Positions 40,455 to 59,608 of a stretch of DNA of 64,000 nucleotides are shown one piece after another. How positions within the stretch are numbered: position 1 is the first letter of the stretch; each line of letters opens with the position of its first letter. The DNA is from Dyadobacter jiangsuensis (GTDB taxonomy: Bacteria; Bacteroidota; Bacteroidia; Cytophagales; Spirosomataceae): the NCBI RefSeq assembly GCF_003014695.1, contig NZ_PYAS01000002.1:124001-188000 (forward strand), in the 5' to 3' direction. The position numbers and the translations under genes were made by a program. Below the pieces are notes generated by a model that saw only the letters and a program-made list of their open reading frames with translations, was not told the DNA's origin and made no database searches.

Positions 40455-40471
40455 TTGTAACAAGAAAGAGA

Positions 40472-41899: not shown

Positions 41900-41932
41900 T
41901 TAAAATCCGAATTTAAATACGCTAATAAAAGG

Positions 41933-41963
41933 AATAGCCCAGACATTTGTTGTGGGCTATTTT
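41933..41963 (+). terminator. Rho-independent terminator of uxuA-uxaC
   Basis: AATAGCCCA and TGGGCTATT form a 9-bp stem around a loop of about 12 bases, followed by a short TTTTAAT tail. It lies 34 bases after the uxaC stop and immediately before the kdgK promoter box. Confidence 0.75.
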
Positions 41964-41975
41964 AATGTTAATACT

Positions 41976-41983
41976 TAATTTTG
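41976..41983 (+). promoter_or_regulatory. TAnnTTTG -7 box of kdgK-eda
   Basis: TAATTTTG, an exact match, 13 bases after the preceding terminator and 70 bases before the kdgK ATG. TTTG at 41946-41949 or TTG at 41950-41952 may serve as -33. It implies separate transcription of kdgK-eda. Confidence 0.55.
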
Positions 41984-42052
41984 GCGCGTAATCATTTTTC
42001 AATGGCCCGTCAGGGAGCTTCATTCTTTGGCAAACGGGCAATAGTTTAAAAT

Positions 42053-43048: not shown

Positions 43049-43065
43049 TAATCTGGCCAACAATC

Positions 43066-43731: not shown

Positions 43732-44313
43732 TTAGTATTCTAAAATATCGCTCAGGCGGGTGGAGAAATTGAGAAGTACTTCACCGCCTGAAAGCGTTTC
43801 TTCAAAATGTACTGCAAGCGGAGGCTTGCCCGGTTCGTAAATGTAGGTTGTCTGGCTTTTCGGACACACAAGCCAGGCAAGCCTCACGCCGTTTTCAATC
43901 CACTTCAGCATTTTTCGTTCCAGGTAACGGAGGCTATCTGTTTTGGATTGTAATTCAATCACAAAATCCGGCGCCATGTATGGGAACGAATTCTTTTCAT
44001 CGTCTGTCAGCGCATTCCAGCGGTCTATTTGTATCCAGGCAACGTCCGGCACCTGCATGGACCTGTCTTGAAGAAAAAAACCTCCATTTGATTCAATTAC
44101 CCTTCCTCCCTTTTTCTTGCGGTTCCAAATAGCTATTTCGGCGATTAATTCACTGTTGTTAGAACTGCCAAGGAGAAAGGTGGGTGTCATAGTGATGTGT
44201 AGTTGACCATTTTCATCCCTTTCCACCATCAATTCGGGATTGGCCACACAGAATGCGACCAACTCGTCGTCGGTGAAATACGGATGTGCAGGTATGTTCA
44301 ATGGGAGAATCAT
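43732..44313 (-). CDS. Uma2-family (DUF820) putative endonuclease
   Basis: Second Uma2-family protein in the window, 193 residues. The N-terminus (HPYFTDDELVAFCVANPELMVERDENGQLHITMTPT) and the PD-(D/E)XK-like core (VPDVAWIQIDRW, APDFVIELQSKTDSLRYLERKMLKWIENGVRLAWLVCP) are complete, with Asp, Glu and Lys in the expected places (E-L-Q-S-K). It is inserted between the hexuronate operons with no obvious functional link. The ATG at 44313 is chosen, since the in-frame start at 44340 precedes the -7 box at 44328-44335. Confidence 0.85.
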   Translation of the reverse strand: MILPLNIPAHPYFTDDELVAFCVANPELMVERDENGQLHITMTPTFLLGSSNNSELIAEIAIWNRKKKGGRVIESNGGFFLQDRSMQVPDVAWIQIDRWNALTDDEKNSFPYMAPDFVIELQSKTDSLRYLERKMLKWIENGVRLAWLVCPKSQTTYIYEPGKPPLAVHFEETLSGGEVLLNFSTRLSDILEY

Positions 44314-44327
44314 AATGTGCTTTTTAT

Positions 44328-44335
44328 CAAATATA
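44328..44335 (-). promoter_or_regulatory. TAnnTTTG -7 box of the second Uma2 gene
   Basis: The minus strand reads TATATTTG, an exact match, leaving a leader of only about eight bases to the ATG at 44313. Confidence 0.55.
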
Positions 44336-44375
44336 AGCATTTACCAAAATGAATGCCAATTGACTTTCTCCCGCA

Positions 44376-44383
44376 TAATTTTG
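44376..44383 (+). promoter_or_regulatory. TAnnTTTG -7 box of the DUF3784 gene
   Basis: TAATTTTG, an exact match, 32 bases before the ATG at 44416. It falls inside a longer in-frame frame starting at 44353, which supports the downstream start. Confidence 0.55.
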
Positions 44384-44415
44384 TAACTTATAAGGCAATT
44401 AGCCGTGACAAAATT

Positions 44416-45135
44416 ATGCTTACCGTTGCCATCATCATTTCGCTGGTCCTGTTTTCGCTCGGGTTTATCGTGACGCCCGGTAATGCGAAGTACCTGTTAT
44501 CGGGGTACAATACGATGTCCGAGGCCGATCGCGCGAAGATGGACATCGTTTCCTACGTCAAGTTTTTCAATCGGTTCCATATATTTCTGGGTATTAGCGA
44601 GTTGGCTGGAGTGCTGATTCTGAACGCTTTTAATCCCAACTGGGCTACGGTGTTCATGGTGATGTACCCGCTGCTGGCGTATGTGTACATGATCGCCGTG
44701 GGCAACCGCTATTACACGGGAACGAGCGGTCAGCGTGTGGGAACCTACATCGTTATGGCCATTATCCTTGTGGTGGTGGTAGGCGTAGGTTATCTGATGT
44801 TTACAGGAATGAAGAACAGCGAGATATCTATGACTGCCGACGCTTTGGAGATCAAAGGGCTTTCGGGGATCAAAGTAGCACGTGATGAAGTGACGGGTTT
44901 CGATGTGACGGACAGTCTGCCCGATATTACGAGTAAAGCAAACGGCTTCGCAGGCGGAGAATTTGCCAAAGGTGCATTCAAGACAGGCGATGGACGCATT
45001 GTCAGATTGTATATCAATAAAAAATCCCATCCCTACCTGCTGATCAAGACAGTTGGGGATGAGATCTATTTCAGTTCTGATGAAATCTCGGCTACCGAGC
45101 TATACAATCACCTTAAAGCGTGGAAGTCCCGGTAA
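44416..45135 (+). CDS. DUF3784-like membrane protein with a C-terminal PH-like domain
   Basis: Membrane protein of 239 residues with an unknown role. The N-terminal half has three to four helices in DUF3784 style (MLTVAIIISLVLFSLGFIVTPGNAKYLLSGYNTMSEADRAKMDIVSYVKFF; LLAYVYMIAVGNRYYTG; IVMAIILVVVVGVGYLMF). The C-terminal half is a beta-rich bacterial-PH-like domain (SMTADALEIKGLSGIKVARDEVTGFDV...GRIVRLYINKKSHPYLLIKT). Its end overlaps the uxaB end by 23 bases on the other strand. Confidence 0.82.
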   Translation: MLTVAIIISLVLFSLGFIVTPGNAKYLLSGYNTMSEADRAKMDIVSYVKFFNRFHIFLGISELAGVLILNAFNPNWATVFMVMYPLLAYVYMIAVGNRYYTGTSGQRVGTYIVMAIILVVVVGVGYLMFTGMKNSEISMTADALEIKGLSGIKVARDEVTGFDVTDSLPDITSKANGFAGGEFAKGAFKTGDGRIVRLYINKKSHPYLLIKTVGDEIYFSSDEISATELYNHLKAWKSR

Positions 45136-46603
45136 AGACCGGCTCGGTTATATAACCTTTCACGGCGTCGGCAAAGCCCGGCAGGAGCGTGAGGTCGGTA
45201 TCCCAAAGTGATGCGTCGCTCAACACCTGTTGCGCCAGATCTACCGGTGATGCGGCATTCTTCCATTTTTCATCGAAATAAGCCGCAGCATCGCAGCGGA
45301 TCGGGTACGACTGACCGTCGCGTTCGCCGAAATAGGCATTGTCCTTATGCACGACAGGCTTCATAAACCGCAGAAATGCCGCAAATCCTTTGGCAAACAG
45401 TGCAGGCACTTCGTCGGACTTCTGGTAATGGCTCAGAAGCGTCGGAATGTTGCGCATTTTCATCTTGGCAGTGTATTGCACGGTAATGTCGATCAGCTGG
45501 TGGCGGATGAACGGGTTCCGGAAGCGATCGAGTACCTGGTTGCCGAATTCCTGCGCCTTCGCAGGGTCGACAGCGTACGGGATCGCGGGTGCAAGTTCTT
45601 TCAGCATCACATCCGCGATAAATTGTGCAGTTTCGGCATTTTCCATTGCCTCGCGAACTGTGTCCAGGCCGTGCAGGTAAGCAAGCCCAGATGCCAGCGT
45701 ATGAGTGCCATTCAGTAATCTCAATTTGAGCTCCCGGAACAGGTCTATATCCGGCTCGATGACCACGCCTTTGTCGGCCTTGGCAAAGCTCAGTACGTCG
45801 CGCACGTGCTGGTCACCTTCGATGGCCCAGAGGCGGTAAACCTCGGAAACGATCAGCAAATCATCTCGGAAACCATGTTTTTCGGAAAGTGCTGCCACTG
45901 TTTCCGCATCGGGCTTGCCGGGAACAATGCGGTCGACCAGCGAGCTGCAAAAGTGGTTATGGTTTTCAAGCCAATAAATAAACGCCCTGTCTAGGTCATG
46001 CCGCTGAGCCTGTTCGAGAACGATGGCTTTCAGTTTAGGGCCATTGCCGACGATCAGCTCCGTAGGAACGATTACCATACCCGACTCTGGCGCACCGTTG
46101 AATGCTTTGTAGCGTTCCAGCAAATAGGCTGTCAGCTTGCCCGGAAAGGACACCGGCGGATTGGCGAAAATATCGTCGTCGGCCAGTTGAATACCGACTT
46201 CAGTTGTATTTGAAATAACAATATTAAGCTCTGAGCTGTGCGCACATTCGAGAATATCGGCCCAGTCACTGGCGGCCGCTAGCGTGCGGCTAATGCTGGT
46301 GTTGATGAGGGATTCATCGACTTGGCTGCCGTTTTCAATTCCGCGGATGCTGTGGGAGAAAACATTCTGCTGTTCCGCAAATGCGTCGGTTCCCCCGGTG
46401 CTGGTCGATTTCACGACGACGATCCGGCCGTTGAATATGCCCTGGGCATTGGCCTTGTTTACAAAATAGTCGGGCAGGCCGCGCAATAGCACACCCGTAC
46501 CGAACTGGATGATTTTTTCAGGCAATGCAAGAAGTTTCCGGTGATCGGGAAGAAGTTCCGGCTGCTGGTCGAGCAGTTGGGGAGATAGCTGCGGTAACGA
46601 CAT
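45113..46603 (-). CDS. uxaB: tagaturonate/fructuronate reductase (UxaB-type)
   Basis: Long-chain mannitol-dehydrogenase family oxidoreductase, 496 residues. Best match by sequence character is tagaturonate reductase (D-tagaturonate to D-altronate, NADH): KIIQFGTGVLLRGLPDYFVNKAN at the nucleotide-binding start, NIVISNTTEVGIQL, PTELIVGNGPKLKAIVLEQA, CSSLVDRIVPG and the catalytic-Lys region RELKLRLLNGTHTLASGLAYLHG. In this cluster the dehydratase is UxuA, which needs mannonate from fructuronate, so the enzyme may in fact act on fructuronate or on both. It is transcribed against uxuA-eda and ends before the lon terminator. Confidence 0.88.
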   Translation of the reverse strand: MSLPQLSPQLLDQQPELLPDHRKLLALPEKIIQFGTGVLLRGLPDYFVNKANAQGIFNGRIVVVKSTSTGGTDAFAEQQNVFSHSIRGIENGSQVDESLINTSISRTLAAASDWADILECAHSSELNIVISNTTEVGIQLADDDIFANPPVSFPGKLTAYLLERYKAFNGAPESGMVIVPTELIVGNGPKLKAIVLEQAQRHDLDRAFIYWLENHNHFCSSLVDRIVPGKPDAETVAALSEKHGFRDDLLIVSEVYRLWAIEGDQHVRDVLSFAKADKGVVIEPDIDLFRELKLRLLNGTHTLASGLAYLHGLDTVREAMENAETAQFIADVMLKELAPAIPYAVDPAKAQEFGNQVLDRFRNPFIRHQLIDITVQYTAKMKMRNIPTLLSHYQKSDEVPALFAKGFAAFLRFMKPVVHKDNAYFGERDGQSYPIRCDAAAYFDEKWKNAASPVDLAQQVLSDASLWDTDLTLLPGFADAVKGYITEPVFTGTSTL

Positions 46604-46661
46604 TTTTTAGTAGATAAAAGGTTTGACAATATGACGCCGTTTGGAAAGCATAACCCCTAAA

Positions 46662-46694
46662 CAAAAAGAGGCACCTTTTCGGTACCTCTTTCGC
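46662..46694 (-). terminator. Rho-independent terminator of lon
   Basis: On the minus strand AAAGAGGTACC and GGTGCCTCTTT pair (one G-T or mismatch) around a GAAAA loop, followed by TTGTT. It lies 18 bases after the lon stop. Confidence 0.82.
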
Positions 46695-46711
46695 ATATTC
46701 TTAAGTCTGGC

Positions 46712-49234
46712 CTAAACCGTCATGGTAGCAAATCCGCTTTCTTCTTTTTCTTTCTTTTCATCGGGAAAAACGAAGTTCATCGGGTTATTCACTTTTTCGG
46801 GAAGCAGCGCGATACCAAGTACCTCATCGACCTGATCCACATAATGGAAGGTCAGGTCCTTGATGTAATTCGCCGGTACTTCCTCCACGTCCTTGCGGTT
46901 CTTCACGCAAAGAATGATTTCCCGTACACCCGCGCGACGGGCTGCCAGGATTTTCTCTTTCACGCCACCCACGGGAAGTACTTTTCCGCGCAATGTGATC
47001 TCGCCGGTCATCGCGATATATGGTTTCACGCGACGCTGTGTAAATATCGATGCCATCGAAGTGGCCATCGTCACACCCGCGCTAGGGCCGTCCTTGGGCA
47101 CTGCGCCCGCTGGCACGTGTACGTGGAGATCGTAATGGTTGAAAATGCGGTAATCGATGCCCAGCCTTTCTGCATTGGCTTTGAGATACGATAATGCGGC
47201 AACAGCCGATTCTTTCATCACATCGCCCAACTGGCCGGATAGTGTCAGCCCGCCTTTTCCGCGGCTCAGGCTCGTTTCGATGAACAGGATTTCTCCGCCT
47301 ACCGAGGTCCATGCAAGGCCGGTCACGACACCTGCAAAGTCATTGTCCTGATACAGGTCTTTATCAAAAATTTCTGCACCGAGGTATTTCTCTATTTGGT
47401 CGGCTTTAACGGTCTTGGGATAATCCTGCTCCATCGCCACCGATTTTGCAATCTTGCGGACAACTGTGCCTACCTTTTGTTCGAGGTTGCGCACACCCGA
47501 CTCACGGGTATAGCCTTCGATCACTTTCAGCAATGCCGCGTCGTCCACTTTCACATCCGTCGATTTCAAACCGTGATCCTTACGCTGCTTTGGAACGAGG
47601 TAGCGTTTCGCGATCTGCAATTTCTCTTCGATGGTGTAGCCGGTCATTTCGATGATCTCCATCCGATCGCGCAATGCGGGATGAATGGTGTCCAGCGAGT
47701 TGGCAGTGGCTACAAAAAGGACTTTCGAAAGGTCGTACTCTACTTCGAGATAGTTGTCGGTAAATGACGAGTTCTGCTCTGGGTCGAGTACTTCCAGCAA
47801 TGCGGAGGAAGGGTCGCCGCGGTAATCGGAGCTCACCTTATCGATTTCATCGAGGATGAACACCGGATTGGCAGAGCCTGCCTTTTTAATATTCTGAATG
47901 ATCTTACCCGGCATCGCACCGATGTAAGTTTTGCGGTGGCCGCGGATTTCGGCTTCATCGTGTACGCCGCCGAGCGCCATACGGATATACTCCCGGTTCA
48001 ATGCCTTTGCAATAGACTTGCCGAGCGAGGTTTTACCCACACCCGGAGGGCCATAAAGGCAAAGAATCGGCGCTTTCAGATTACCTTTTAGCTTCAACAC
48101 TGCCAGGTATTCAATAATGCGCTCTTTCACCTTTTCGAGTCCGAAATGATCGGCGTCGAGGATTTTTTGCGCCCTTACCAGGTCAAAATTGTCCTTGGTA
48201 TATTGTCCCCATGGCAAATCCACCAGTGTTTCCAGGTAATTCATCGTTACCGGGTATTCCGGGGCCATCGGATTAACGCGCTGCAACTTGCTGAGCTCTT
48301 TTTCGAAATGTGCCTTCACGGGCTCCGACCATTTTTTCTGGCTGGCTTTCAGGCGGATCTCGTCGAGATCGCGCTCCGGGCTGTCCATTCCGAGTTCGTC
48401 ATGCAAAACTTTGATCTGCTGGCGAAGGAAGTAGTCGCGCTGCTGCTGGTCGATATCCGAGCTCGCTTTGGTCTGGATCTCCCGTTTCAATTCCAGCATT
48501 TCGATTTCGCGCATCATGTATTGCAGCAAAAGCGTAGCCTGCTTGTGGCCATTGCGTTCTTCGAGCAATTTCTGCTTATCGGCGATTTCGACATTGATAT
48601 TCGACGACAGGAAATGGATCAGGAAGATCGGGCTTTCGATGTTGTCCAATGCAATGCGTGCTTCCTGCGGGATTTCCGGGTTCAGGCGCATGATCTTGTG
48701 CGCACCATCACGCAGCGATTGCAGTAATGCTTTCGCTTCTTTTTTGGTGGGCCCTACGAATGAATCCTCGATCGGACGCACTTCGGCGGTCAGGTAAGGT
48801 TCTTCGTTTACAATGGCTTTGATTTCGAAGCGCTGGCGACCCTGCACGATGATCGTTACGTTGCCATCCGGCAGGGTAATCATTTTCAGGATCTGCGCGA
48901 CGGTACCAATGTTGTAAAGGTCCTCAGCCGTAGGGTCTTCCTTGTTGGGAATGGCCTGAGTGACGGCACCGAGAATACGCTGATTGATATCGGAGTTGCG
49001 GTATATCTTTTTTACAAGCCTGATGGCTTTCTGGCGCACCACTGTCACGGGAATGACCATCCCCGGGAAGAGCACCGTTTGCCTGATCGGAAGTATCGCT
49101 AATTCATTGGGAAGTTCAAAGGGCTCGTCAGAGCCGTCGGGGCCACCAAGAGGAACGATTTCAAGGCTATCCATGTCCGAGTCAGACATCAGCAGCCGGC
49201 TATATAGATCAGAAGGTTCAAATTTCATAGGCAT
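46712..49234 (-). CDS. lon: ATP-dependent protease La (LonA)
   Basis: Cytosolic AAA+ serine protease of 840 residues degrading misfolded and regulatory proteins. The LON substrate-binding domain occupies about residues 40-240 (LAILPIRQTVLFPGMVIPVTV). Walker A GPPGVGKTSLGKS and Walker B VFILDEIDKV follow. The protease domain has the Ser-Lys dyad at S718 (PKDGPSAG) and K759 (GGVKEKI), as usual. ATG at 49234 or 49228 is possible. A perfect CTGTCAA-A-TTGACAG palindrome sits one base upstream of the first start codon. Bacteroidota Lon is usually of this length. Confidence 0.97.
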   Translation of the reverse strand: MPMKFEPSDLYSRLLMSDSDMDSLEIVPLGGPDGSDEPFELPNELAILPIRQTVLFPGMVIPVTVVRQKAIRLVKKIYRNSDINQRILGAVTQAIPNKEDPTAEDLYNIGTVAQILKMITLPDGNVTIIVQGRQRFEIKAIVNEEPYLTAEVRPIEDSFVGPTKKEAKALLQSLRDGAHKIMRLNPEIPQEARIALDNIESPIFLIHFLSSNINVEIADKQKLLEERNGHKQATLLLQYMMREIEMLELKREIQTKASSDIDQQQRDYFLRQQIKVLHDELGMDSPERDLDEIRLKASQKKWSEPVKAHFEKELSKLQRVNPMAPEYPVTMNYLETLVDLPWGQYTKDNFDLVRAQKILDADHFGLEKVKERIIEYLAVLKLKGNLKAPILCLYGPPGVGKTSLGKSIAKALNREYIRMALGGVHDEAEIRGHRKTYIGAMPGKIIQNIKKAGSANPVFILDEIDKVSSDYRGDPSSALLEVLDPEQNSSFTDNYLEVEYDLSKVLFVATANSLDTIHPALRDRMEIIEMTGYTIEEKLQIAKRYLVPKQRKDHGLKSTDVKVDDAALLKVIEGYTRESGVRNLEQKVGTVVRKIAKSVAMEQDYPKTVKADQIEKYLGAEIFDKDLYQDNDFAGVVTGLAWTSVGGEILFIETSLSRGKGGLTLSGQLGDVMKESAVAALSYLKANAERLGIDYRIFNHYDLHVHVPAGAVPKDGPSAGVTMATSMASIFTQRRVKPYIAMTGEITLRGKVLPVGGVKEKILAARRAGVREIILCVKNRKDVEEVPANYIKDLTFHYVDQVDEVLGIALLPEKVNNPMNFVFPDEKKEKEESGFATMTV

Positions 49235-49235
49235 T

Positions 49236-49250
49236 CTGTCAAATTGACAG
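49236..49250. promoter_or_regulatory. CTGTCAA-A-TTGACAG palindrome at the lon start
   Basis: Perfect 7-1-7 inverted repeat ending one base before the lon ATG (minus strand). It could be an operator for a heat-shock or stress repressor that blocks initiation, or a structure at the ribosome-binding site. No other copy was seen in the window. Confidence 0.45.
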
Positions 49251-49363
49251 ATATTCTTTTCCCAATATATAAATAATGACTTTCAAAAGAAAGGCATTAT
49301 AAAACAAAATAGCCGTGCCACTACACATTATGTCATGCATTTTTATGAGCGGTCACAAACCTA

Positions 49364-49945
49364 TTACAGCAGGTGAGAAGTCTGTCCTTTCTTAAATAAA
49401 AGTGTCTTTTTTTCGGACTGGAACTTAACGTTGGTCATATTGACCTGATCGTCAAAAACTTCCATGAGCGTAACGTTCAAAAGTTTGCAGCCGTTCAAAG
49501 CGCCCTGGAAAGGGATTTCGAGATACACCCACGTTGCATCAGCTTCCTGTTCTTTCCCGACATATTTGATAGGGGTATTTTTTTTCTGACTATCTGTCAA
49601 AACAAATGATTTGCGAATGTATTCTTCAACGAAACGATCATTTTGATCATTGTCTTTGATCACAAAACGTTGTTTGGAGTGGCTTTGCGACAATGCTTTT
49701 TCAAGATCGTCAGTGAATATCCGGATACTTACTTCGAACGATTTGGACGAAGCATTGTATTGCATTTGCGTCACCGAAACGTGGTAGTCGTGTTTCGGGT
49801 TGAAGGACGTCAGGAGGAGGAGGAGGGAGGAAAGGAGGAAGGGGAGGAAGGGGAGGAAGGAGGAAGGGGAAAAAGTCAGAAAGTCAGGAAAGTGAAATGA
49901 CCCTCCTGACCCCCTGACTACTTTCCTTTCTTCCCTTTCCTCCAT
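49364..49945 (-). CDS. DUF6702-like secreted protein; signal peptide encoded by a purine/pyrimidine repeat
   Basis: Envelope protein of about 193 residues. The mature part (HDYHVSVTQMQYNASSKSFEVSIRIFTDDLEKALSQ...GAWV-type strands, KLLNVTLMEVFDDQVNMTNVKFQSEKKTLLFKKG) resembles the DUF6702 family of unknown function. The start is uncertain: an ATG at 49984 overlaps rseP, and one at 49945 lies inside the repeat. The hydrophobic core of the signal peptide (FLPFLPFLLSSLLLLLTS) is translated from a CTTCCTCCC-type low-complexity tract, so it may vary between strains. It follows rseP, overlapping or abutting it. Confidence 0.7.
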   Translation of the reverse strand: MEEREERKVVRGSGGSFHFPDFLTFSPSSFLPFLPFLLSSLLLLLTSFNPKHDYHVSVTQMQYNASSKSFEVSIRIFTDDLEKALSQSHSKQRFVIKDNDQNDRFVEEYIRKSFVLTDSQKKNTPIKYVGKEQEADATWVYLEIPFQGALNGCKLLNVTLMEVFDDQVNMTNVKFQSEKKTLLFKKGQTSHLL

Positions 49946-49972
49946 CCTCCCTTTCCTCCCTTTTCTTAAAAT
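49812..49972 (-). repeat. purine-rich composite repeat forming a large imperfect inverted repeat
   Basis: On the plus strand 49812-49899 is almost all G and A (GGAGGAAGGGGAGGAAGG units, then GTCAG...GTCAGG) and 49900-49967 is almost all C and T, mirroring it (CCTGAC...CCTGAC, then CTTTCCTCCATCCTCCC). The two arms form an imperfect inverted repeat of about 75 bases each, covering the rseP end and the DUF6702 start. The minus strand contains AGGATGGAGGAAAGGGAA. Confidence 0.75.
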
Positions 49973-51300
49973 ACCGCTTTCCATACGTCGTTGAAAATGG
50001 CGAATGCCATCAGGCCTAAAAGCAGTACCATACCAACTTTCTGAGCGTTTTCAAGGAATTTGTCGGAAGGCTTGCGGCCTGAGATAATTTCATAGGAAAG
50101 GATCACCGCGTGGCCGCCGTCCAATGCAGGGATAGGCAGTGCATTCATGAATGCGAGCACCATCGATAGCAGGCCGGTGAGTTGCCAGAAACGGCCCCAA
50201 TCCCAAACGCCACCAAACATACGTGCGATGCCGATTGGACCACTCAGCGCCTTGGAAGCGGATACTTCACCGCGGAATATTTTGCCGAAACCTTTGATAT
50301 TGTTATACACTACGCCGAAGGCATTCTCTGTGCCAATCGCTACCGCTTCGCCGAAAGTATACTGAACGACCGTCGAATGGAGAAGACTTTCAGGGTAGAA
50401 CCCGAGCGTTCCGTCTTCGGTTATGGCCGCTTTCAATGATTTTTGTGCGCCACCGCGCTGCACCACCAGGACAGCTTCTTTTCCTTTCAGTTTTTCCAGT
50501 TCCGCCTGCAATTCGTGGAAGAAACGGATAGGCGTGCCGTTGATGGAGGTAATCTGGTCGCCCACTTCTACGCCCGCTTTTTCGGCTGGCATTCCCGGGA
50601 TCAGTTCGGCGATCTTGAAAGGCTCCATCGCACGGATGAAATTCCGTTTCTCGTCGGGGTCAGATAGTTTCTCAATGAAATTGTTGGGAATCTCGATCTG
50701 TACATCCTGTCCGTTGCGGTCAACGGTGTAGGAGCTGTTGCTTCCCAGGAAAACCTCTGAGCTGATCACATCACTGAAATCCGTGAAAGGCTTGCCATTC
50801 ACTCGGACTATTTTGTCGCCTGTTTTCAGGCCGATCTCTTGTGCAAGCTCACCTGCCACGATACCATATTTATTGACTTCGTCGATCGACAGGAATTGTC
50901 TGCCGTCGTGATAAGCGATAGCGATGAAAATGATGATACCGACGACCACGTTCACGATAATCCCGCCTAGCATCACGATCAGCCGTTGCCAGGCTGGTTT
51001 CGAACGGAATTCCCACGGTTGCGGCTCCTGGTTCATCGCCTCGGTGTCCATCGACTCGTCGATCATCCCGGAAATCTTTACAAACCCGCCCAGCGGGATA
51101 GCACCTATTCCATATTCTGTTTCGCCTTTCTGAAAACTGAAAATTTTAGGAGGAAAGCCTATAAAGTATTTTTCAACCCTCATTCCGAACAATTTTGCGG
51201 CGGCCATGTGCCCCCACTCATGCAACCCCACCAGGATCGACAGGCCGAGGATAAGCTGCCCTGCCATGATCAATATTTCCAATGCTTTCTGTAATTCCAT
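49966..51300 (-). CDS. rseP: RIP zinc metalloprotease RseP
   Basis: Inner-membrane site-2 protease of 444 residues that cleaves transmembrane segments, such as those of anti-sigma factors or leftover signal peptides. The zinc site HEWGH (H27, E28, H31) is in the first helix, followed by the cytoplasmic/periplasmic loops with two PDZ-like segments (residues 125-210 and 215-290: GLKTGDKIVRVNG; EKAGVEVGDQITSING). The second zinc-binding motif NALPIPALDGGH is near residue 390. It lies downstream of the mutS-like gene (133 bases) and may be its own transcript. Confidence 0.96.
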   Translation of the reverse strand: MELQKALEILIMAGQLILGLSILVGLHEWGHMAAAKLFGMRVEKYFIGFPPKIFSFQKGETEYGIGAIPLGGFVKISGMIDESMDTEAMNQEPQPWEFRSKPAWQRLIVMLGGIIVNVVVGIIIFIAIAYHDGRQFLSIDEVNKYGIVAGELAQEIGLKTGDKIVRVNGKPFTDFSDVISSEVFLGSNSSYTVDRNGQDVQIEIPNNFIEKLSDPDEKRNFIRAMEPFKIAELIPGMPAEKAGVEVGDQITSINGTPIRFFHELQAELEKLKGKEAVLVVQRGGAQKSLKAAITEDGTLGFYPESLLHSTVVQYTFGEAVAIGTENAFGVVYNNIKGFGKIFRGEVSASKALSGPIGIARMFGGVWDWGRFWQLTGLLSMVLAFMNALPIPALDGGHAVILSYEIISGRKPSDKFLENAQKVGMVLLLGLMAFAIFNDVWKAVF

Positions 51301-51433
51301 TCAGGTTTTGTAATCGTTACGGGTTAATTGTTAATCAAAAAAGTTCGATCTCCGCTACCGGATCAGTGTTTTAAACGTAAATGTAAACAGTAAAGTTACG
51401 CAAATCCGCAAACAACCGTACAAATGCCCGGTA

Positions 51434-53263
51434 TCAGTGTGCAAGCGGGGTTTTGTCGGGGCCGATAGCAATGCCCATCATCCGCATCAGCTCCGACGCG
51501 TTGAAACTTCGGCAAATGCCTTCGTGCAAACGATAATCGAAATGCAGCTGGCCATTCTCCACATCCGACCGGAAATGGAAGTTATGGATGTAGGTTTCGG
51601 TCGCGCCCCATTCGCCGAGTTCGAGATCGTGGGTGGATACCATACCGGACGCTTTTTTGGAATGCAGCTGGCGGATCAGCGCCTCCGCGCCCCGGTGGCG
51701 GTCGGCGGAGTTAGTGCCTTTCAATATCTCGTCGAGCAGATAGAAAACCGGCGCTTCGGCATTTCCATCCGACAATTCGAGCAGTTTCCGCAGGCGTTTA
51801 AGCTCTGCATAAAATGACGACGTGCTTTCTTCCAGCGAGTCTTGCGTACGCATGCTGCTGAACACCCGCACAGGCGAGCAAACGAATGCGCCCGCGCTCA
51901 CGACCGCGCCCATTTGCGCAAGGACGAGGTTAAGGCCAATCGTTCTCAAAAAGGTACTTTTTCCCGACATATTTGAGCCGGTTACGAGTATCGTCTTTCC
52001 TGTTCCCTGCATTGAGAAGTCATTACTGATCCGTTTTGCGGTGGGAATCAGCGGGTGGCCGAGCGAAGTAGCGGCGATTGTAACCTCGGCAGTGTCGTTG
52101 ACAGCGGGCACAATATATTCCGGGTTAGCAAATGCGTGACCTGCCAGGCTGTTCATTGCCTCGGTATCGGCCAGTACGTCGAGCCAATCGGTGAGATGCT
52201 GGTGATGCACGGCTTTCCAGTCTTCGAGGCTGGCGAGGCAATGCATGTCCCAGAGTGTGGGAATGCCGATGAAAATGGCGAAGTAGGGATTGTTGCGGTA
52301 GTCCAGCTTTTCGAAGAGGTTACCGACCTTCGCCAATGCTGCCGAAGAGCCGGTGATCTGCGCCTTTCTCACCTGCCACCACGCCGATTGATACGGTGCG
52401 TGCTCCGCTTTTTTCAACAAATCGGAATAAGCGGTGAGCGTTTGGCCCATCGAGGTCGTGCGGTTGGCGAGCAATTTCACAAAGTCGGCATAGCGGCCTG
52501 ATATGAAAAGATGAATCCCAAGGCTGATCAACACAGCAATGCCTGGCACGATACCTGCGAAATACAATACCGCGATCACCAGAGTAAGCAGCGGGTACCA
52601 GCGCAGCGGTAACGCGTTTTTCAATGGCATGGGAAATGGCTCCACTACCCATGCCTGGAACTCGCCCACGTGTTTGGCCGCGTGCTCGTGAAGCAATGCG
52701 GTCGCTTCCCATTGCTGGATGAGCTCGGGATGTTGGCTGAAATCGGTGGCGGCTGCTTGCCGAAGGCCTACCTCGGTTGCATTAGCCGGGTTTTTGAGCC
52801 AGTTCGCCAGTCGGCGGCTTCCTTCTGAGGTGCGGCTGCGGTTGAGAAGTTTGAAAAGAGAAAAGTCGCCGAAAATGTCCAGATCGTCCGAGTAATTATG
52901 GTCTTTTTCACGGAATTCGGAACCCGTTTCGGGCCTTTTAAAGCGCAGATCTAGCCGGGCCAGTTCGTCGTCGTTAATGGCTACCAGGTTTCGCTGAAAG
53001 TTCCGGTTGGTTCGGGCTTCCTGCTGTTTCCGCATCAGGATAAGGAACACCACAAGGAACACCAATATCCCTATTCCCCAGTAGGCAATGCCGGTTTTGT
53101 TCCAGACCACCGCCAGTATCACCATGCCCGCGAATGCAGCCAGGCGCAGCAGAGCTATATTTTTAAACCTTTCATGTTCCCTTTGTTCCGATATGGCCGC
53201 TTTGTCTTTTTGTGCCTGAAAAAATGTGCGTGATTCGGACCGGGTTGTTTCAGTATTTTTCAT
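51434..53263 (-). CDS. membrane-anchored MutS-like ATPase
   Basis: MutS-family protein of 609 residues. The N-terminus has two hydrophobic helices (residues about 35-78: LLRLAAFAGMVILAVVWN and WGIGILVFLVVFLILMR) followed by a further hydrophobic pair (YPLLTLVIAVLYFAGIVPGIAVLISLGIHLF) in the middle. The C-terminal ATPase is MutS-like: Walker A TGSNMSGKSTFLRTIG, AQMGAVVSAGAFVCSPV, SSFYAELKRLRKLL, Walker B YLLDEILKGTNSADR and STHDLELG. It lacks the mismatch-recognition domain I (no FxE motif), so it is not the classic repair MutS. The ATG overlaps the ABC exporter stop by four bases. Confidence 0.88.
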   Translation of the reverse strand: MKNTETTRSESRTFFQAQKDKAAISEQREHERFKNIALLRLAAFAGMVILAVVWNKTGIAYWGIGILVFLVVFLILMRKQQEARTNRNFQRNLVAINDDELARLDLRFKRPETGSEFREKDHNYSDDLDIFGDFSLFKLLNRSRTSEGSRRLANWLKNPANATEVGLRQAAATDFSQHPELIQQWEATALLHEHAAKHVGEFQAWVVEPFPMPLKNALPLRWYPLLTLVIAVLYFAGIVPGIAVLISLGIHLFISGRYADFVKLLANRTTSMGQTLTAYSDLLKKAEHAPYQSAWWQVRKAQITGSSAALAKVGNLFEKLDYRNNPYFAIFIGIPTLWDMHCLASLEDWKAVHHQHLTDWLDVLADTEAMNSLAGHAFANPEYIVPAVNDTAEVTIAATSLGHPLIPTAKRISNDFSMQGTGKTILVTGSNMSGKSTFLRTIGLNLVLAQMGAVVSAGAFVCSPVRVFSSMRTQDSLEESTSSFYAELKRLRKLLELSDGNAEAPVFYLLDEILKGTNSADRHRGAEALIRQLHSKKASGMVSTHDLELGEWGATETYIHNFHFRSDVENGQLHFDYRLHEGICRSFNASELMRMMGIAIGPDKTPLAH

Positions 53264-55089
53264 GAAAGGGTTTCAACGTTTTCAAATTGTAGTTTGATAA
53301 GGTTGGCGTATAAGCCGTCGGGAATGGTGCTTAATGCCTGGTGTGTTCCCGATTCCGCAATCCGGCCTTCACGCAGGACGTAGATCATATCGACCTTACG
53401 AATGGTGGCGAGCCGGTGCGCGATCACGATCGTCGTGCGGTTTTTCATCAGCTCATCCAATGCGACCTGAACGAGCTTTTCGGATTCCGCGTCGAGCGAG
53501 CTGGTCGCTTCGTCGAGAATGAGGATTTTAGGGTCTTTTAAAATAGCCCTTGCAATGGCAATGCGCTGCCGCTGGCCGCCGGAGAGCTTAATGCCCCGCT
53601 CGCCTACGATAGTCTCAAACCCTTCGGGAAAAGACTCGATAAATTCCAGTGCATGGGCGCGCGCGGCGGCATCGATAATGGCTTCACGAGAGGCCGAAGG
53701 TTTTCCGTAAGCAATGTTTTCGTAGATCGTTCCGCCAAAAAGCATCACTTCCTGCGGCACGATCGCGATGTTTTTCCTTAATGCCGAAAGGCCATATTCC
53801 CGGACAGGCTTGCTATCGACGAGGATTTCGCCGGATTGATATTCATAGAAACGCATGAGCAGCTGAACGATGGTAGATTTGCCCGCGCCGCTGTATCCTA
53901 CCAAAGCTATTTTCTCGCCTGCCTGAATATCCAGCGAAACGCCTTTTAAAACCGGCAGATCGGGACGCGATGGATAAGCAAAATGGATATCCTGATAAGT
54001 CACACGGCCTTCTACGTGACTTGCCACCGCATTTTGCGCTTCATCCACCGAAACCTCGGGCGTTTCTGCCAAAATTTCGAAAATGCGTTCGGACGCTCCC
54101 ACCGTGCGGCTGATTTGAGCATACAAATCACCCATTCCGCTGATCGACGCGCCGATGAAAGTGGTGTAAAGGATAAATGTAAACAGATCCGAAAGTCCGA
54201 ACTCGCCCGCTTGTACCAATGCCGCGCCATACCATACCACGCCTACGATCCCGCCGAATGTAGCGAAAATGATAAACGACACGAATCCGCCCCGGAACCG
54301 CGCCGCGTACAACGTCAGGTCAACCACCCGGTCGAGAATTGTCCGGTACCGGTTGATTTCCAGCGGCTCATTGGTAAATGCCTTTACGACATTTACGGAT
54401 TGCAACGTTTCTTCCACCACCACGTTCGCAGCCGCAAGCTGATCCTGTGCCTTGCGCGAGAGCCTGCGCGTATGCCGTCCGAAGAATACCGAAGCCACGC
54501 CCAGAATGGGTACCGTCGCGAGCATGAAGAGCGTCAGTTTCCAGGAAGTATAAAACAAAATGGACATTCCGACGATCAGCGTGGCCAGCTGCCGGAAGAG
54601 TTCCGCGAGTGTAAATGACAGCAAACCTTGCAGTTGCGAAACATCGGAAGTAATGCGGCTGGTGAGTTCACCCACGCGACGTTCTTCGAGAAACGGCACG
54701 GGCAATGTGATGATCTTGCTGAAAACATCGAGCCTGATGTTATTAACAGCCTTTTCACTGACTTTGGAAAAAAGATAGATCCGAAAGAACGAAAATATGG
54801 CCTGGCCCAGCAACACCACGAAAAGCAGTAGGGTGATTTGATTGATCGTGAACCGGGATTTGCCCTCAATGACCTCGATAATGCTTCCAACGAGTTTCGG
54901 AAATGCCAGGGACGTACCGGTGGACAATGCCAGGAACAGCATCCCCGCCGCGAACATCATACGATAGGGCCGCAGGTAACGCAGCAGCCGGAGTGTAATT
55001 TTCAATCCTTCCCACCTGATTTTTTTTACGGCAAATGGAGAGGGGGTTTCCTTGTCGGGCAAGGACTTGCCAGTTTCATTATTGGCCAT
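53260..55089 (-). CDS. MsbA-like ABC exporter (fused permease and ATPase)
   Basis: Lipid/drug-export half-transporter of 609 residues. Six membrane helices occupy about residues 35-330 (YRMMFAAGMLFLALSTGTSLAF; TIGIVFYTSWKLTLFML-like segments; GGFVSFIIFATFGGIVGVVW). The nucleotide-binding domain has Walker A VGYSGAGKST, the signature LSGGQRQRIAIARAIL and Walker B ILILDEATSSLD. It resembles MsbA-type exporters, so a lipid or lipid-A-like substrate is possible but not shown. The stop overlaps the mutS-like start by four bases, showing a coupled operon with a promoter at 55155-55162. Confidence 0.93.
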   Translation of the reverse strand: MANNETGKSLPDKETPSPFAVKKIRWEGLKITLRLLRYLRPYRMMFAAGMLFLALSTGTSLAFPKLVGSIIEVIEGKSRFTINQITLLLFVVLLGQAIFSFFRIYLFSKVSEKAVNNIRLDVFSKIITLPVPFLEERRVGELTSRITSDVSQLQGLLSFTLAELFRQLATLIVGMSILFYTSWKLTLFMLATVPILGVASVFFGRHTRRLSRKAQDQLAAANVVVEETLQSVNVVKAFTNEPLEINRYRTILDRVVDLTLYAARFRGGFVSFIIFATFGGIVGVVWYGAALVQAGEFGLSDLFTFILYTTFIGASISGMGDLYAQISRTVGASERIFEILAETPEVSVDEAQNAVASHVEGRVTYQDIHFAYPSRPDLPVLKGVSLDIQAGEKIALVGYSGAGKSTIVQLLMRFYEYQSGEILVDSKPVREYGLSALRKNIAIVPQEVMLFGGTIYENIAYGKPSASREAIIDAAARAHALEFIESFPEGFETIVGERGIKLSGGQRQRIAIARAILKDPKILILDEATSSLDAESEKLVQVALDELMKNRTTIVIAHRLATIRKVDMIYVLREGRIAESGTHQALSTIPDGLYANLIKLQFENVETLS

Positions 55090-55154
55090 TGGATATGAGG
55101 TACACCGGGAATCAGCTTAAACCCGGTTTGGATAAACATTCGATAGCTGGTCTG

Positions 55155-55162
55155 CAAAAGTA
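55155..55162 (-). promoter_or_regulatory. TAnnTTTG -7 box of the ABC exporter/MutS-like operon
   Basis: The minus strand reads TACTTTTG, an exact match, about 66 bases before the ABC exporter ATG at 55089. The rest of the 290-base gap up to 55379 shows no open frame and no clear promoter for the divergent sigma gene. Confidence 0.55.
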
Positions 55163-55379
55163 CGCATTATTTAAAAGTCACCCGGGCAGGGCCTCCCGGT
55201 AGGTTTACTTCCGGCAGGGCATTACCACCAAGTTTACGTGCGATTGTCCTTAAAAATTCCTAATTTTTCAATGAACGGACGATGTGTCTTTTTGCCGGTG
55301 TAAAAATGTTGTAAAAAACTTTTCAGCCCCAGGCAACCCTGTGCCGGATTCCCTCGTATAGGCTAAAAAAGCAAATAGC

Positions 55380-55949
55380 ATGCCCGAGTATAACTCCGCC
55401 GTTCTTCAAGAACTACTCGACGGCTGTTTACAGAAAAACCGCCGCAGTCAGGAGCTGTTGTACAAGCAGTTCTACGGCTATGCTATGAGCATTTGTTTAC
55501 GCTATACACGCAGCCGGGAAGAGGCGAAAGAAATACTCAACGATGGATTCCTGAAGGTTTTCACGAAGCTCGAAAGTTTCGATGCAAGCCGACCATTCAA
55601 AACCTGGTTGAGCAGAATCATGATTAATACAGCCCTCGATCATTACAGACAGGAAGTTCGCAGAGATGTTTTTGACGACGTGGAAGTCGCGGAGCAGGTG
55701 TCCGTTGACGAAACGGTTATCAGCAAGCTTTCACACGAAGAGCTGGTCGGACTGATCCAGCGTCTGACACCGGCATACCGGCTGGTATTCAGCTTGTCGG
55801 TTATCGATGGCTACACACACGAAGAAATTGCAGAACAACTGAGTATTTCGGTTGGGGCGTCAAAATCCAATTTGTCGCGTGCAAGGGAAAAGTTGAGAGA
55901 AATGTTATCCAAGATTAATATTGACGACTATGATAGAGTTGCCAGATGA
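55380..55949 (+). CDS. ECF RNA polymerase sigma factor
   Basis: ECF sigma factor of 189 residues. Region 2 is QELLYKQFYGYAMSICLRYTRSREEAKEILNDGFLKVFTKLESFD...FKTWLSRIMINTALDHYRQ; region 4 is LTPAYRLVFSLSVIDGYTHEEIAEQLSISVGASKSNLSRAREKLREML. Its last 20 bases overlap the start of the next gene, a membrane protein, so this is a sigma/regulator pair. It differs from the sigma at 38518 (a SusC/D-type factor) in region 2 and in genomic context. Confidence 0.93.
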   Translation: MPEYNSAVLQELLDGCLQKNRRSQELLYKQFYGYAMSICLRYTRSREEAKEILNDGFLKVFTKLESFDASRPFKTWLSRIMINTALDHYRQEVRRDVFDDVEVAEQVSVDETVISKLSHEELVGLIQRLTPAYRLVFSLSVIDGYTHEEIAEQLSISVGASKSNLSRAREKLREMLSKINIDDYDRVAR

Positions 55950-57510
55950 CGAACTGGACAAGCTCTTCAGAAAGTCATCAGAAGAGCTTGATCCGACATA
56001 CGAACCCGACGATTGGAATGACCTGCGGAAGTTACTCGATAAGCAGGACGGGAAAACTCCGGCCGGATGGTGGCGGAAATGGTGGCCGCTGGGCGTACTG
56101 GCGCTGCTGATACCCGTGGGGATTGCGCTTTATTCTCTCGAAGGGGAGAAGGGAGGAAAGGAGGATGGAGGAAAGGGAATTGCTTTGAAAGGTCTTGAAA
56201 CGGAGGATGGAGGAAGTGAGAGAGGGGTAGTGGAGGATGGAGGCGTGAAGGCTGCTGGCGACGAGTCAGGTGTGGTCAGAGAGTCAGGTATTGTCAATGA
56301 GTCGGGCAGTTCGTTGGAAAAGGTTGGGAAGCCGGGTGGTTCAGGAGAAGAAGCCGTAAAATCGGCTGCGAGTGTGGATAAAGGAAATCCTGCTGTGGAT
56401 AATACAAACGAATTGGTTGCTAAAAGAAATGAGGCTGTTCGGAACGGCAAAATAGCTATTGGTGACAAACTGAAAACCAGTGAAAAAGAGGCTGGTAAAT
56501 CTTCCTCGAAATCAGAATTGAATAATGCCGCGAGTAACGGCAGAAAACCATTGCCCCGGAGCCAATCTAAGGCAGGCGGAGTGTTCTTAGAGCCTAACCG
56601 CTCAAAAGTGGAAGGAGGCGACGGGGCTCTTTCTTTGAAAAACAATGCGAATACGGAAGGCAGGGAGACGTCCTTGCCGCAAGCAGCCAGTCGGCAGGAT
56701 GGCAATGCTGGTTCAAAAGCGCTGACGGGATCGGAAGGTGAGCCTTTGATAAAAGCCGGTGAGTCGGGCCGTGCATTAATCTCTGCATCTGCACTGGATA
56801 GTAAAACATTGAAATGGAGTGTGCTGTCATTGCCCGGGATTTCCGCGCCCGAGCAGGAGATCATGGCAGAGCCTGCGCCCAGGGAATCCTCCATGTCTGC
56901 AGATGATCAGCCTTTGATGGCTGTCAGGTTTGGCTATTCACCGGATTTGAGCACGGTGGGGTTGAAGGATTTTTCAAAACCCGGTACGTCTGTGTCGCTA
57001 TTGGTAGAGTATTCAGTTTTACCAAGATTGTATTTACAAAGTGGGGCGGTTTGGAGCAGGAAAGATTACTCTGCATCGGCGGAGGCATACCAATTGCCCA
57101 AGCACAAGTATTACCCCCCGTTGGCATTGAGTGGAATAGACGGCGTGTGTAAAGTGCTGGAAATACCGCTGAATGTGAGATATGATATAGCATCTGGAGA
57201 ACGTTCTCGCTGGTTTGCAACAGGCGGCTTCTCGTCCTACCATATGAACGGTGAAAAATATAAATACTATTATATCGACCCGAATGATCCCAGTGCGGAA
57301 AAGTGGCCGGGCTGGAATGGCAAAACCGGCTGGTACTGGCTAAGTCACGCCAATGTCTCAGCGGGCTACGAATACAGAATTTCCCGTAAACTCTCCCTCC
57401 TCGCAGAGCCGTCAATACGGATGCCGCTCAAACGCGTGGGTTACGGAAAAGTGAATCTTATTACTACCGGCCTCTGGCTATCGGTGCGCTACACCCCTGT
57501 TTTCAAGTGA
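55930..57510 (+). CDS. membrane protein with Ser/Gly-rich linker and barrel-like C-terminus, sigma-linked
   Basis: Protein of about 526 residues, unrecognised. The N-terminus (MIELPDDELDKLFRKSSEELDPTYEPDDWNDLRKLL) and a single helix at about residues 45-66 (WWPLGVLALLIPVGIALYSL) suggest an anti-sigma-like cytoplasmic head and a membrane anchor. A long low-complexity linker rich in Gly, Ser, Glu and Lys (residues 70-290) contains a purine repeat. The C-terminal 170 residues (VRFGYSPDLSTVGLKDFSKPGTSVSLLVEYSVLPRLYLQSGAVWSRKDYS...LPLNVRYDIASGERSRWFATGGF...SAGYEYRISRKLSLLAEPSIRMPL) look like an outer-membrane beta-barrel. This would span both membranes. The ATG at 55930 is preferred over a TTG at 55921. 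Confidence 0.78.
   Translation: MIELPDDELDKLFRKSSEELDPTYEPDDWNDLRKLLDKQDGKTPAGWWRKWWPLGVLALLIPVGIALYSLEGEKGGKEDGGKGIALKGLETEDGGSERGVVEDGGVKAAGDESGVVRESGIVNESGSSLEKVGKPGGSGEEAVKSAASVDKGNPAVDNTNELVAKRNEAVRNGKIAIGDKLKTSEKEAGKSSSKSELNNAASNGRKPLPRSQSKAGGVFLEPNRSKVEGGDGALSLKNNANTEGRETSLPQAASRQDGNAGSKALTGSEGEPLIKAGESGRALISASALDSKTLKWSVLSLPGISAPEQEIMAEPAPRESSMSADDQPLMAVRFGYSPDLSTVGLKDFSKPGTSVSLLVEYSVLPRLYLQSGAVWSRKDYSASAEAYQLPKHKYYPPLALSGIDGVCKVLEIPLNVRYDIASGERSRWFATGGFSSYHMNGEKYKYYYIDPNDPSAEKWPGWNGKTGWYWLSHANVSAGYEYRISRKLSLLAEPSIRMPLKRVGYGKVNLITTGLWLSVRYTPVFK
56141..56310 (+). repeat. purine-rich GGA/GTCAGG composite repeat within the sigma-linked gene
   Basis: GGGAGGAAAGG followed by AGGATGGAGGAAAGGGAA at about 56151-56178, then two further GGAGGATGGAGG copies (about 56202 and 56233) and a GTCAGG-rich part (56264-56300: GAGTCAGG, GGTCAG, GAGTCAGG, GTCA). 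The order and words match the block at the rseP/DUF6702 junction. It is in frame and encodes the Gly/Glu-rich linker. Confidence 0.75.
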
Positions 57511-57562
57511 GCACTATGCCCACATTATCATTGCATTCTATCTTCTAATTAATTTATTCATT

Positions 57563-58078
57563 ATGAACTCAATTGACCAAGGAAACATGAAAAGAGGCGA
57601 GTTCCTGAGAAGCCTCGGGCTCAGCACCTCAACGTTAATGGCATTCTATTGCCTCGGCACCACTATGACCGCTTGCGGATCGAAAGACGATGATCCGAAT
57701 CCAGATCCGGATCCGAATCCGGGCACTGGTTCAGGCTCCGGAATATCGGGTACAACCACCGGCACAGCGATCAATTTCACGGTTGATTTGACCAATTCGG
57801 CCGTTTCCAAGCTGAAAACCAACGGAGAGTCCATCATTACGGGCGATGTACTCGTGGCGAAAACGACTGCCGGCAGCTATGTAGCTTTGACCAGAATCTG
57901 TACGCATGAAGGAAATGAAGTCCGATACAGATCGACCTCCAACGATGTTTTCTGCCAAACACACGGTTCCACATTCACCACGGCCGGTGCAGTAACCAAT
58001 GGTCCTGCCACAACTGCGCTTAAAACGTATAATGTGACCGTTTCTTCGGACGGAAACACTTTGACCGTGAAAGCTTAA
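57563..58078 (+). CDS. Rieske [2Fe-2S] lipoprotein
   Basis: Envelope electron-transfer protein of 171 residues. It has an N-terminal basic signal with RRxLxxL-like character (KRGEFLRSLGL) and a lipobox TMTAC (Cys38), then a low-complexity PD/NP/GS linker and a Rieske domain. The cluster ligands are visible: C113 and H115 in ICTHEG, and C131 and H134 in FCQTHGS. An ATG at 57587 (MKRGEFL) is an alternative start. It is first in a probable run with the DUF5777 and YceI genes, 12 and 8 bases apart. The electron partner is unknown. Confidence 0.9.
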   Translation: MNSIDQGNMKRGEFLRSLGLSTSTLMAFYCLGTTMTACGSKDDDPNPDPDPNPGTGSGSGISGTTTGTAINFTVDLTNSAVSKLKTNGESIITGDVLVAKTTAGSYVALTRICTHEGNEVRYRSTSNDVFCQTHGSTFTTAGAVTNGPATTALKTYNVTVSSDGNTLTVKA

Positions 58079-58986: not shown

Positions 58987-59550
58987 ATGAAACCGCATTT
59001 TTATCGCGTGGCCTGCCTGGCCATGTTCAGTACCGCTTTGCTTTCCGGAACTGCATTTGCCCAAATGTTTGCCACTTCGGGCGGCAATACGCAGTTCTCG
59101 GCGTCGACACCTTTGGAGAATATTGAAGCGGAGAATAAAAAATCGCAGGTGATCCTGAACACGGCTAACAACGAGATCGCGATCCGGATGAACATGCGGG
59201 ACTTTTCCTTCCCCAATAAGCTGATGCAGGAGCATTTTAATGAAAACTACATTGAATCGGTGAAATACCCGACGGCCACGTTCTCGGGCAAGGTCGATAA
59301 GGCGCCGGATTATACCAAGGACGGCGACTACGATGTGTCGGCGACCGGCAAATTCACGGTTCACGGCGTTACCAAGGAGCGGACGATCAAAGGGAAGATG
59401 AAGATTGCGGGAGGTAAGATCACGATCAGTTCCGATTTCGAGGTAGCGCTGGTGGATCACAATATCGAAGTGCCGAAGGTGGTTTTCGTGAAAATCGCGC
59501 AGATCATCAAGGTGAAGGCGCAATATGCATTAGCTCCTTATAAAAAATGA
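58987..59550 (+). CDS. YceI-family periplasmic protein
   Basis: YceI-family lipocalin-like protein of 187 residues with a signal peptide (VACLAMFSTALLSGTAFAQ). Family motifs are the N-terminal strand (NTQFSASTPLENIEAENKKSQVILNTANNEIAIRMNMRDFSFPNKLMQEHFNENYIESVKYPTATFSGKV) and DVSATGKFTVHGVTKERTIKGKMKIAGGKITISSDFEVALVDHNIEVPK. Members bind polyisoprenoid or amphiphilic lipids and occur near electron-transfer genes; this one sits eight bases after the DUF5777 gene. Confidence 0.92.
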   Translation: MKPHFYRVACLAMFSTALLSGTAFAQMFATSGGNTQFSASTPLENIEAENKKSQVILNTANNEIAIRMNMRDFSFPNKLMQEHFNENYIESVKYPTATFSGKVDKAPDYTKDGDYDVSATGKFTVHGVTKERTIKGKMKIAGGKITISSDFEVALVDHNIEVPKVVFVKIAQIIKVKAQYALAPYKK

Positions 59551-59554
59551 TAAA

Positions 59555-59608
59555 GACCTACGTTCCGCCGGAACGCCGGAACGCCGGAACGTAGGTCTTT
59601 ATTAAAAC
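59555..59608. terminator. bidirectional terminator with tandem CCGGAACG units in the loop
   Basis: AAAGACCTACGTTCCG and its exact complement form a 16-bp stem; the 17-base loop is made of two further CCGGAACGC units of the same series, so the right arm continues a tandem repeat. T-rich on both sides. It lies between the YceI gene and the convergent beta-galactosidase gene. Confidence 0.85.

Follow-up and report, generated by a model that had tools for sequence, protein, structure and literature searches.

Several families of short palindromes and heptamers are known from bacterial genomes. Rickettsia palindromic elements (RPEs) are lineage-specific families of fixed sequence in which palindromic DNA lies in frame within protein genes, and cyanobacterial STRRs are short intergenic heptamer arrays with a patchy distribution across species. 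Further systems are described in the accessible parts of the published accounts. REPs, palindromes tagged with GTAG or CGTC, form hairpins between unidirectional and convergent ORFs and are in some cases intragenic (PMC3733652). The TAACTGA heptamer forms intergenic direct repeats that are patchy across species and also occur in five Bacteroidetes, and its arrays in Maribeggiatoa are located mostly just upstream of start codons (PMC4679880). The P6b stem-loop of the Nostoc tRNA-Leu intron is composed of one of two classes of degenerate heptamers, which have repeatedly and independently been replaced (PMC4476775, PMC3488679). As far as these sources go, this two-class heptamer hairpin is the closest precedent for the elements reported here. 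No description of a Dyadobacter family of word hairpins was found in the literature searched by genus and by repeat type, most subscription papers lying beyond reach.

The window analyzed here is a stretch of 64,000 nucleotides from Dyadobacter jiangsuensis (source genome G000, 8.27 Mb). A preliminary description of it had noted an 18-mer, AGGATGGAGGAAAGGGAA, shared by two unrelated reading frames, and both exact copies are present, at 56162-56179 on the plus strand and at the rseP junction on the minus strand (49931-49948). Each is preceded by GGGAGGAAAGG, directly at 56151-56161 and with one additional G at 49960-49949, and each is followed by GTCAGG, at 56265 and 56283 on the plus strand and at 49918 and 49910 on the minus strand. 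A third match with two mismatches (49854-49871) falls in the opposite arm of the hairpin at rseP that is described below. The three matches in the window at up to three mismatches compare with 0.03 expected from shuffled sequences. Across the source genome, 108 matches were found at up to three mismatches, five of them exact, against two for the reversed-pattern control; thus the dispersed repeat family proposed in the preliminary description is real.

The family is centered on the genus. When 59 related genomes were surveyed, a 16-mer at up to one mismatch was found in 23 of the 37 members of Dyadobacter (0 to 63 matches each) and in one of the 22 other genomes. A scan of named genomes gave at least 103 stretches, and among the 80 matches listed, 67 are from Dyadobacter, five from Spirosoma or Fibrella and eight from scattered others. 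Reading around the match revealed a purine arm followed by a pyrimidine arm at the five Spirosoma and Fibrella loci, and no such arm pair at the Bifidobacterium and Paenibacillus loci. Identical words of up to 19 nt are common to unrelated loci, and are also shared with Spirosoma and Fibrella.

The words fall into distinct vocabularies: the purine vocabulary GGAGGAAAG, GGTCGGC, TATAAGC, GTCAGG and two rarer ones. Purine and GGTCGGC words tend to be abundant in the same genomes (Spearman 0.43, 37 genomes, uncorrected for kinship). In the stretches of G000 examined, 72 purine clusters were located after de-duplication, a few weak ones among them probably being due to chance. Purine words, measured between GAGGA anchors, are spaced by 9 nt in 118 cases and by 7 nt in 83, and the GGTCGGC and TATAAGC words were read as spaced by 7 nt. 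By simple count, both arms (purine words, a loop, pyrimidine words) are present in 39 clusters, of which 25 lie between co-directional genes, eight between convergent genes, one in a divergent gap and five in genes. The preliminary description had treated GGATGGAGGAAAG followed by GTCAGG as one ordered composite. Exact GTCAGG occurs within 150 nt of 10 of the 72 purine clusters (control mean 11.64, maximum 19), and three or more GTCA-type words occur within the same distance of four (control mean 1.91, maximum 7). GTCAGG is thus not enriched within 150 nt of the 72 clusters, and the composite is rejected as a genome-wide unit, although it does recur in the orthologues of one linker and in one FecR-like gene (C1:710664). 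GGATGGAGGAAAG and GTCAGG are separate vocabularies that meet at a few loci. That the unit is usually a hairpin, that it adjoins stop codons and that species differ in its content went unnoticed in the preliminary description.

Folding is a common property of these elements. Among 78 segments of at least 55 nt taken from the slots described below, 61 fold at z<-2 and 34 at z<-4, compared with 7 and 1 of 100 random 120-nt stretches of the window, a control that is mostly coding rather than restricted to intergenic DNA. The remaining 17 segments do not reach z<-2, which counts against the explanation favored below. Arms sharing at least 30 nt exactly with another locus number 26 of 98, against 2-10 in five order-6 Markov simulations; the excess is modest, and duplicated permease genes may account for part of it. 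Other repeats were observed alongside. Two near-perfect inverted repeats outside the purine vocabulary lie at 59550-59602, with arms of 21 nt around three copies of CGCCGGAA, and at 18583-18630, with arms of 22 nt. Another dispersed-looking hairpin, CACCCTGAGCGAAGTCGAAGGG ... CCTTCGACTTCGCTCAGGGTGACA, adjoins GTCAGG words at L085 (C10:328613-328913), and the related CTTCGACTTCGCTCAGCGTGACA is found near L010. Long uniform heptamer arrays of TGTCGGC and AGCTGAT are carried by a relative, G061 (C1:619854-619927 and C1:661269-661362), and are possible raw material for the vocabularies.

One hairpin element of the window follows the rseP stop codon (49812-49963, minus strand). Its outer arms are purine (49963-49931) and pyrimidine (49871-49820), its inner, nested arms are made of GTCAGG words (49918-49905 and 49888-49875), and with 15 nt of flanking sequence its MFE is -94 kcal/mol. 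It is situated between the stop of rseP, a gene for an M50-type site-2 protease (Peptidase_M50 with PDZ domains, 49966-51300, minus strand), and the part encoding the mature DUF6702 protein (49364-49984, minus strand), whose ATG overlaps the end of rseP. The element is therein read in frame as the N-terminus: the purine arm encodes an n-region rich in K/R/E/G and the pyrimidine arm a hydrophobic region rich in L/F/P/S, an N-terminus that is signal-peptide-like as judged by eye from its residues. Most of 30 genomes have a hairpin or a hairpin-like arm pair at this junction, G009 being an exception (by eye). In the source genome the hairpin is purine on the outside and GTCAGG on the inside; in G003 the arms are mainly GTCAGG. 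A BLAST search with the element returned 107 matching pieces in the source genome, many of them short (25-50 nt at 85-100%), and the longest non-self match has 75% identity over query positions 1-162. As no near-identical full-length copy was found in that genome, words are shared between loci, and near-identical whole elements are not.

The second exact copy belongs to a different setting. A 529-aa membrane protein (ORF 55921-57510, plus strand, likely start ATG 55930) is encoded directly 3' of an ECF sigma-70 family RNA polymerase sigma factor (55380-55949, plus strand). It has no match in Pfam at E<=1 or in NCBIfam at E<=0.01, and its position and N-terminus suggest that it is probably a sigma regulator. 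After its transmembrane segment, which was placed by eye, a one-armed tract of purine words (GGGAGGAAAGGAGGATGGAGGAAAGGG ... GGAGGATGGAGG, 56146-56243, plus strand) runs in frame through the linker and contains the exact 18-mer, and it is followed by in-frame words of the GTCAGG vocabulary (GTCAGGTGTGGTCAGAGAGTCAGGTATTGTCA, 56263-56303, plus strand) encoding ESGVVRESGIV. The orthologous linkers were read by eye in 30 genomes, three of which were judged from DNA only. Purine and GTCAGG words are found in 12 of the 30, including the source genome; the G026 orthologue has purine words without the GTCAGG part, that of G011 has the composite repeated, and the other 17 genomes have different linkers of similar length with no such words. 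The region 56146-56303 is a one-armed relic within the linker. The earlier reading of both copies as in-frame linker or signal sequence agrees with what is seen at 56146-56303 and 49812-49963.

With gene contexts taken from a home-made gene caller, 43 of the 72 purine clusters are co-directional, 13 convergent and four in divergent gaps, and the remaining 12 fall within predicted genes. The gene pairs of the two blocks number 107 co-directional, 29 convergent and 31 divergent ones, and divergent gaps hold 4 of the 60 non-genic clusters against 31 of the 167 pairs. Among the co-directional clusters, 37 of 43 lie within 10 nt of the upstream stop codon, some beginning a few codons before it, and 3 of 43 overlap the following predicted start or lie within 10 nt of it. 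Where at least 80 nt of the gap is free, 17 of 23 clusters abut the stop, where 1.5 would be expected if placement were uniform. Purine elements often occupy the gap between convergent stop codons: 12 of the 13 convergent clusters are within 10 nt of at least one stop and eight are within that distance of both, one of these eight reaching 56 nt into the end of a predicted gene. In 13 of the 18 half elements that lie between co-directional genes, the purines are on the sense strand. Intrinsic terminators are unsupported, a T-rich tail being present beside only three of the 39 hairpins and no terminator-like site being called at 49812-49963 in a scan limited to loops of 3-8. At two loci of the source genome, C1:708420-708723 and C14:61619-62211, a single stop codon is followed by a purine half and a pyrimidine half, about 280 nt and about 570 nt apart respectively, a layout resembling a hairpin parted by an insertion.

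At orthologous positions, one vocabulary can take the place of another. The block C6:359541-475735 of the source genome is syntenic with contig C9 of G027 at ~87% identity. Five gaps carry unrelated sequence (40-420 nt) on both sides, and each of them holds two different vocabularies in the two genomes: purine versus GGTCGGC in four (C6:369245, 373490, 388455 and 425092) and GGTCGGC versus TATAAGC in the fifth, at 39130-39265 of the window. In a sixth gap (C6:437774), a GGTCGGC element of 269 nt stands opposite 30 nt, and the other gaps are one-sided or longer. Alignments chained over eight genomes for the C6 block and over seven for the window block showed two vocabularies at 9 of 16 chosen slots. 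Within the window, the slot after the stop of ORF 38518-39129 (39130-39265, plus strand) holds GGTCGGC words in the source genome and G063, a TATAAGC hairpin in G027, G003 and G002, and only 13-15 nt in G032 and G062. A scan for swaps in any species covered 31 slots, in which many cells are NA and some calls may reflect coding matches (e.g., 384285 and 386684, which were not used), and flagged 12 swaps; ten were kept, since the intervals at 432221 and 437708 merged several elements. Among those kept is C6:375995, where five genomes have GGTCGGC and G069 has purine words. By eye, most of the changes look like replacements of purine by GGTCGGC words. Several slots are empty in some species, and in G066 six of seven mappable C6 slots lack a word hairpin and the seventh has only a weak one, which counts against a function. 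No target duplication was seen by eye at filled versus empty sites.

Of the ten clean swaps, nine come from a single region with many MacB/FtsX-like permease genes and the tenth is in the window; the two genes checked beside C6 slots encode such permeases. Because paralogous permease flanks made flank-only mapping unreliable (it placed one G011 and one G062 sequence in two slots, the permease genes being duplicated), orthology rests on the chained alignments, as does the swap at 378526 in G011. The swapped slots sit between conserved flanks, in blocks about 80-90% identical between species. In the same block, gene-scale differences from G027 were observed at C6:453664-460767 and C6:464937-468800, and a Y1 transposase gene is present at C6:468360-468704.

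In-frame copies extend to an essential enzyme. The editing domain of leuS (Pfam tRNA-synt_1_2) contains an in-frame insert in 22 of 30 genomes and a short loop in the other eight. Twenty inserts carry purine words, one is of GGGCATA type (G023) and one of GTGAAAA type (G014); 16 of the 22 fold at z<-2, those of G001, G007, G010, G021, G034 and G069 not reaching this threshold, and in G001, G007 and G021 the pyrimidine arm is indistinct by eye. Match lengths suggested a short loop in 17 of 18 further genomes, and in G068 a gap interrupts the match. The leuS tree requires at least six changes between filled and short states, or at least eight when vocabularies are counted. Four short alleles share FA(V/L)DG-DANIEV, and their lineages are interleaved with filled ones, so that recombination of leuS alleles between species may explain part of the pattern and the insertions may not be independent. 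Other purine copies lie in frame in a loop of an Asparaginase_2 protein (C4:236428), where the copy precedes what we take to be the autocleavage site, in a probable beta-helix protein below the Pfam cut-off (C16:179949) and, together with GTCAGG words, in the gene at C1:710664, which is FecR-like by eye and has no Pfam match in the piece searched. A class I tRNA synthetase of the window, presumably valS by its motif, has purine words in frame at 4946-4982 (plus strand) that are of equal length in the seven species compared; they may be an old captured copy or a coincidence. By sequence logic, purine and pyrimidine arms cannot hold a stop codon, which fits the dominance of purine words in genes.

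These observations of a dispersed family of hairpins, with its stop-codon position, swaps and in-frame copies, are best accommodated by a family with interchangeable word vocabularies that is shaped by slippage, arm-to-arm copying and short-tract copying and then filtered by tolerance, a reading to which we assign a probability of roughly 50%. Its hairpins consist of degenerate words of 7-10 nt, arranged head to tail in one arm and as the reverse complement in the other, with each hairpin drawing mainly on one vocabulary. Slippage inside an arm would multiply and vary the words, one arm would be templated from the other within the folded hairpin so that complementarity is kept, and new words would arrive as short tracts copied from hairpins elsewhere in the genome. 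Insertions would persist chiefly at sites where they are nearly harmless, after stop codons and within loops, and the purine vocabulary, neither arm of which can contain a stop codon, is able to enter proteins, sometimes as in-frame loops. On this reading, 56146-56303 would be a half element captured as a linker, and 49812-49963 a complete, nested one that was taken over as a signal-peptide-like N-terminus. The hairpin formed in RNA at gene ends probably protects the 3' end of the mRNA or sets its limit.

Alternatively, the hairpins could be REP-like or MITE-like palindromes that are moved by a Y1 (RAYT/IS200-type) transposase and prefer sites behind genes. REPs too lie mostly downstream of coding regions, between unidirectional or convergent genes, and in some cases within genes (PMC3733652), and 47 of the 48 Dyadobacter genomes carry Y1_Tnp genes. 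However, the copy numbers of purine words and Y1_Tnp genes are uncorrelated (Spearman -0.06, 37 genomes), and REP tag tetramers lie within 12 nt of an end in 8 of 39 hairpins, which is chance level by our own arithmetic. The 75% match as the longest relative of the rseP element and the exchange of the entire content at one site with no target duplication visible by eye also speak against such movement, which we regard as unlikely.

An equally unlikely alternative is that the hairpins are purely selected RNA structures for mRNA 3'-end protection or termination, whose arms re-evolved in each lineage from local words. Abutment on stop codons, rarity in divergent gaps, strong folding and recurring slots would all follow from such selection. 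The same slots are nonetheless empty in other species, copies lie inside leuS and other proteins, and few hairpins have the T-rich tail (3/39). Moreover, a local origin would not yield identical words of up to 19 nt across unrelated loci, Spirosoma and Fibrella.

A more far-reaching version of turnover, which we consider rather improbable, is an active Dyadobacter process that creates and rewrites hairpins, in interchangeable vocabularies, behind stop codons and in frame in essential proteins such as leucyl-tRNA synthetase, such that the form is inherited and the letters are replaced. The rewriting agent would perhaps be a dedicated enzyme copying a short template, or hairpin exchange at cruciform breaks. 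The swaps might instead have arisen as entire regions were replaced by homologous ones from other Dyadobacter strains, with no turnover of hairpins, and the four interleaved lineages with short leuS alleles are in keeping with this. At intergenic slots, however, the alignment of the flanks runs up close to the hairpin from either side, by eye at ordinary identity, and import merely shifts the question of origin to the donor; we hold this to be very improbable. Finally, chance or a low-complexity purine bias is rejected as the origin, for although purine-rich sequence repeats easily and the word detector gives 52 clusters on reversed sequence (not de-duplicated) versus 72 (de-duplicated), a control that tells nothing, since purine words look much the same when reversed and de-duplication was lacking, the excess of the 18-mer in window (3 versus 0.03) and genome (108 versus 2), the paired complementary arms and the replacement of purine by non-purine words at identical sites leave it next to no probability.

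An ordinary-looking repeat is thus part of an unusual system. In the accessible sources, replacement of a word class in a hairpin is known from one Nostoc intron locus, and here it takes place between sequenced species, at several comparable positions. With empty slots as controls and copies in an essential enzyme, the cause of hairpin turnover becomes directly testable. The family also offers a route from noncoding hairpin DNA to protein loops, linkers and signal-peptide-like segments, and cautions that a conserved position at the 3' end of a gene may conceal a total loss of sequence homology.

Set against the known systems, as far as the accessible accounts describe them, the Dyadobacter family combines traits of several. 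Unlike MITEs, it shows no near-identical full-length copies of the rseP element in G000 and, by eye, no target-site duplication. Its hairpins resemble REPs in lying downstream of coding regions, as seen in the co-directional clusters (37/43), but show no conserved GTAG or CGTC tag, have arms that vary in word number and are not linked to Y1_Tnp copy number. With the TAACTGA repeats and STRRs it has in common short, intergenic and patchy heptamer words, whereas the TAACTGA repeats are direct and, in Maribeggiatoa, mostly precede starts, and the Dyadobacter words form complementary arms after stop codons. The leuS insert is palindromic, in frame and absent from some orthologues (22 filled, 8 short), as in RPEs as outlined at the beginning, but in Dyadobacter one vocabulary can replace another at a given site, and the majority of copies lie between genes. 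The Nostoc P6b hairpin is confined to one intron locus, whereas the Dyadobacter hairpins occupy many genomic slots with at least four vocabularies. Their loci are gene ends and protein genes, positions 38500-57600 of the window match no Rfam family at gathering score, and the copies lie mostly after stop codons and also in frame in proteins. As in P6b, the arms are built from degenerate tandem words of about 7 nt (9 or 7 nt for purine words), and the word class is replaced at the same place, in Dyadobacter at 10 of the 31 listed slots.
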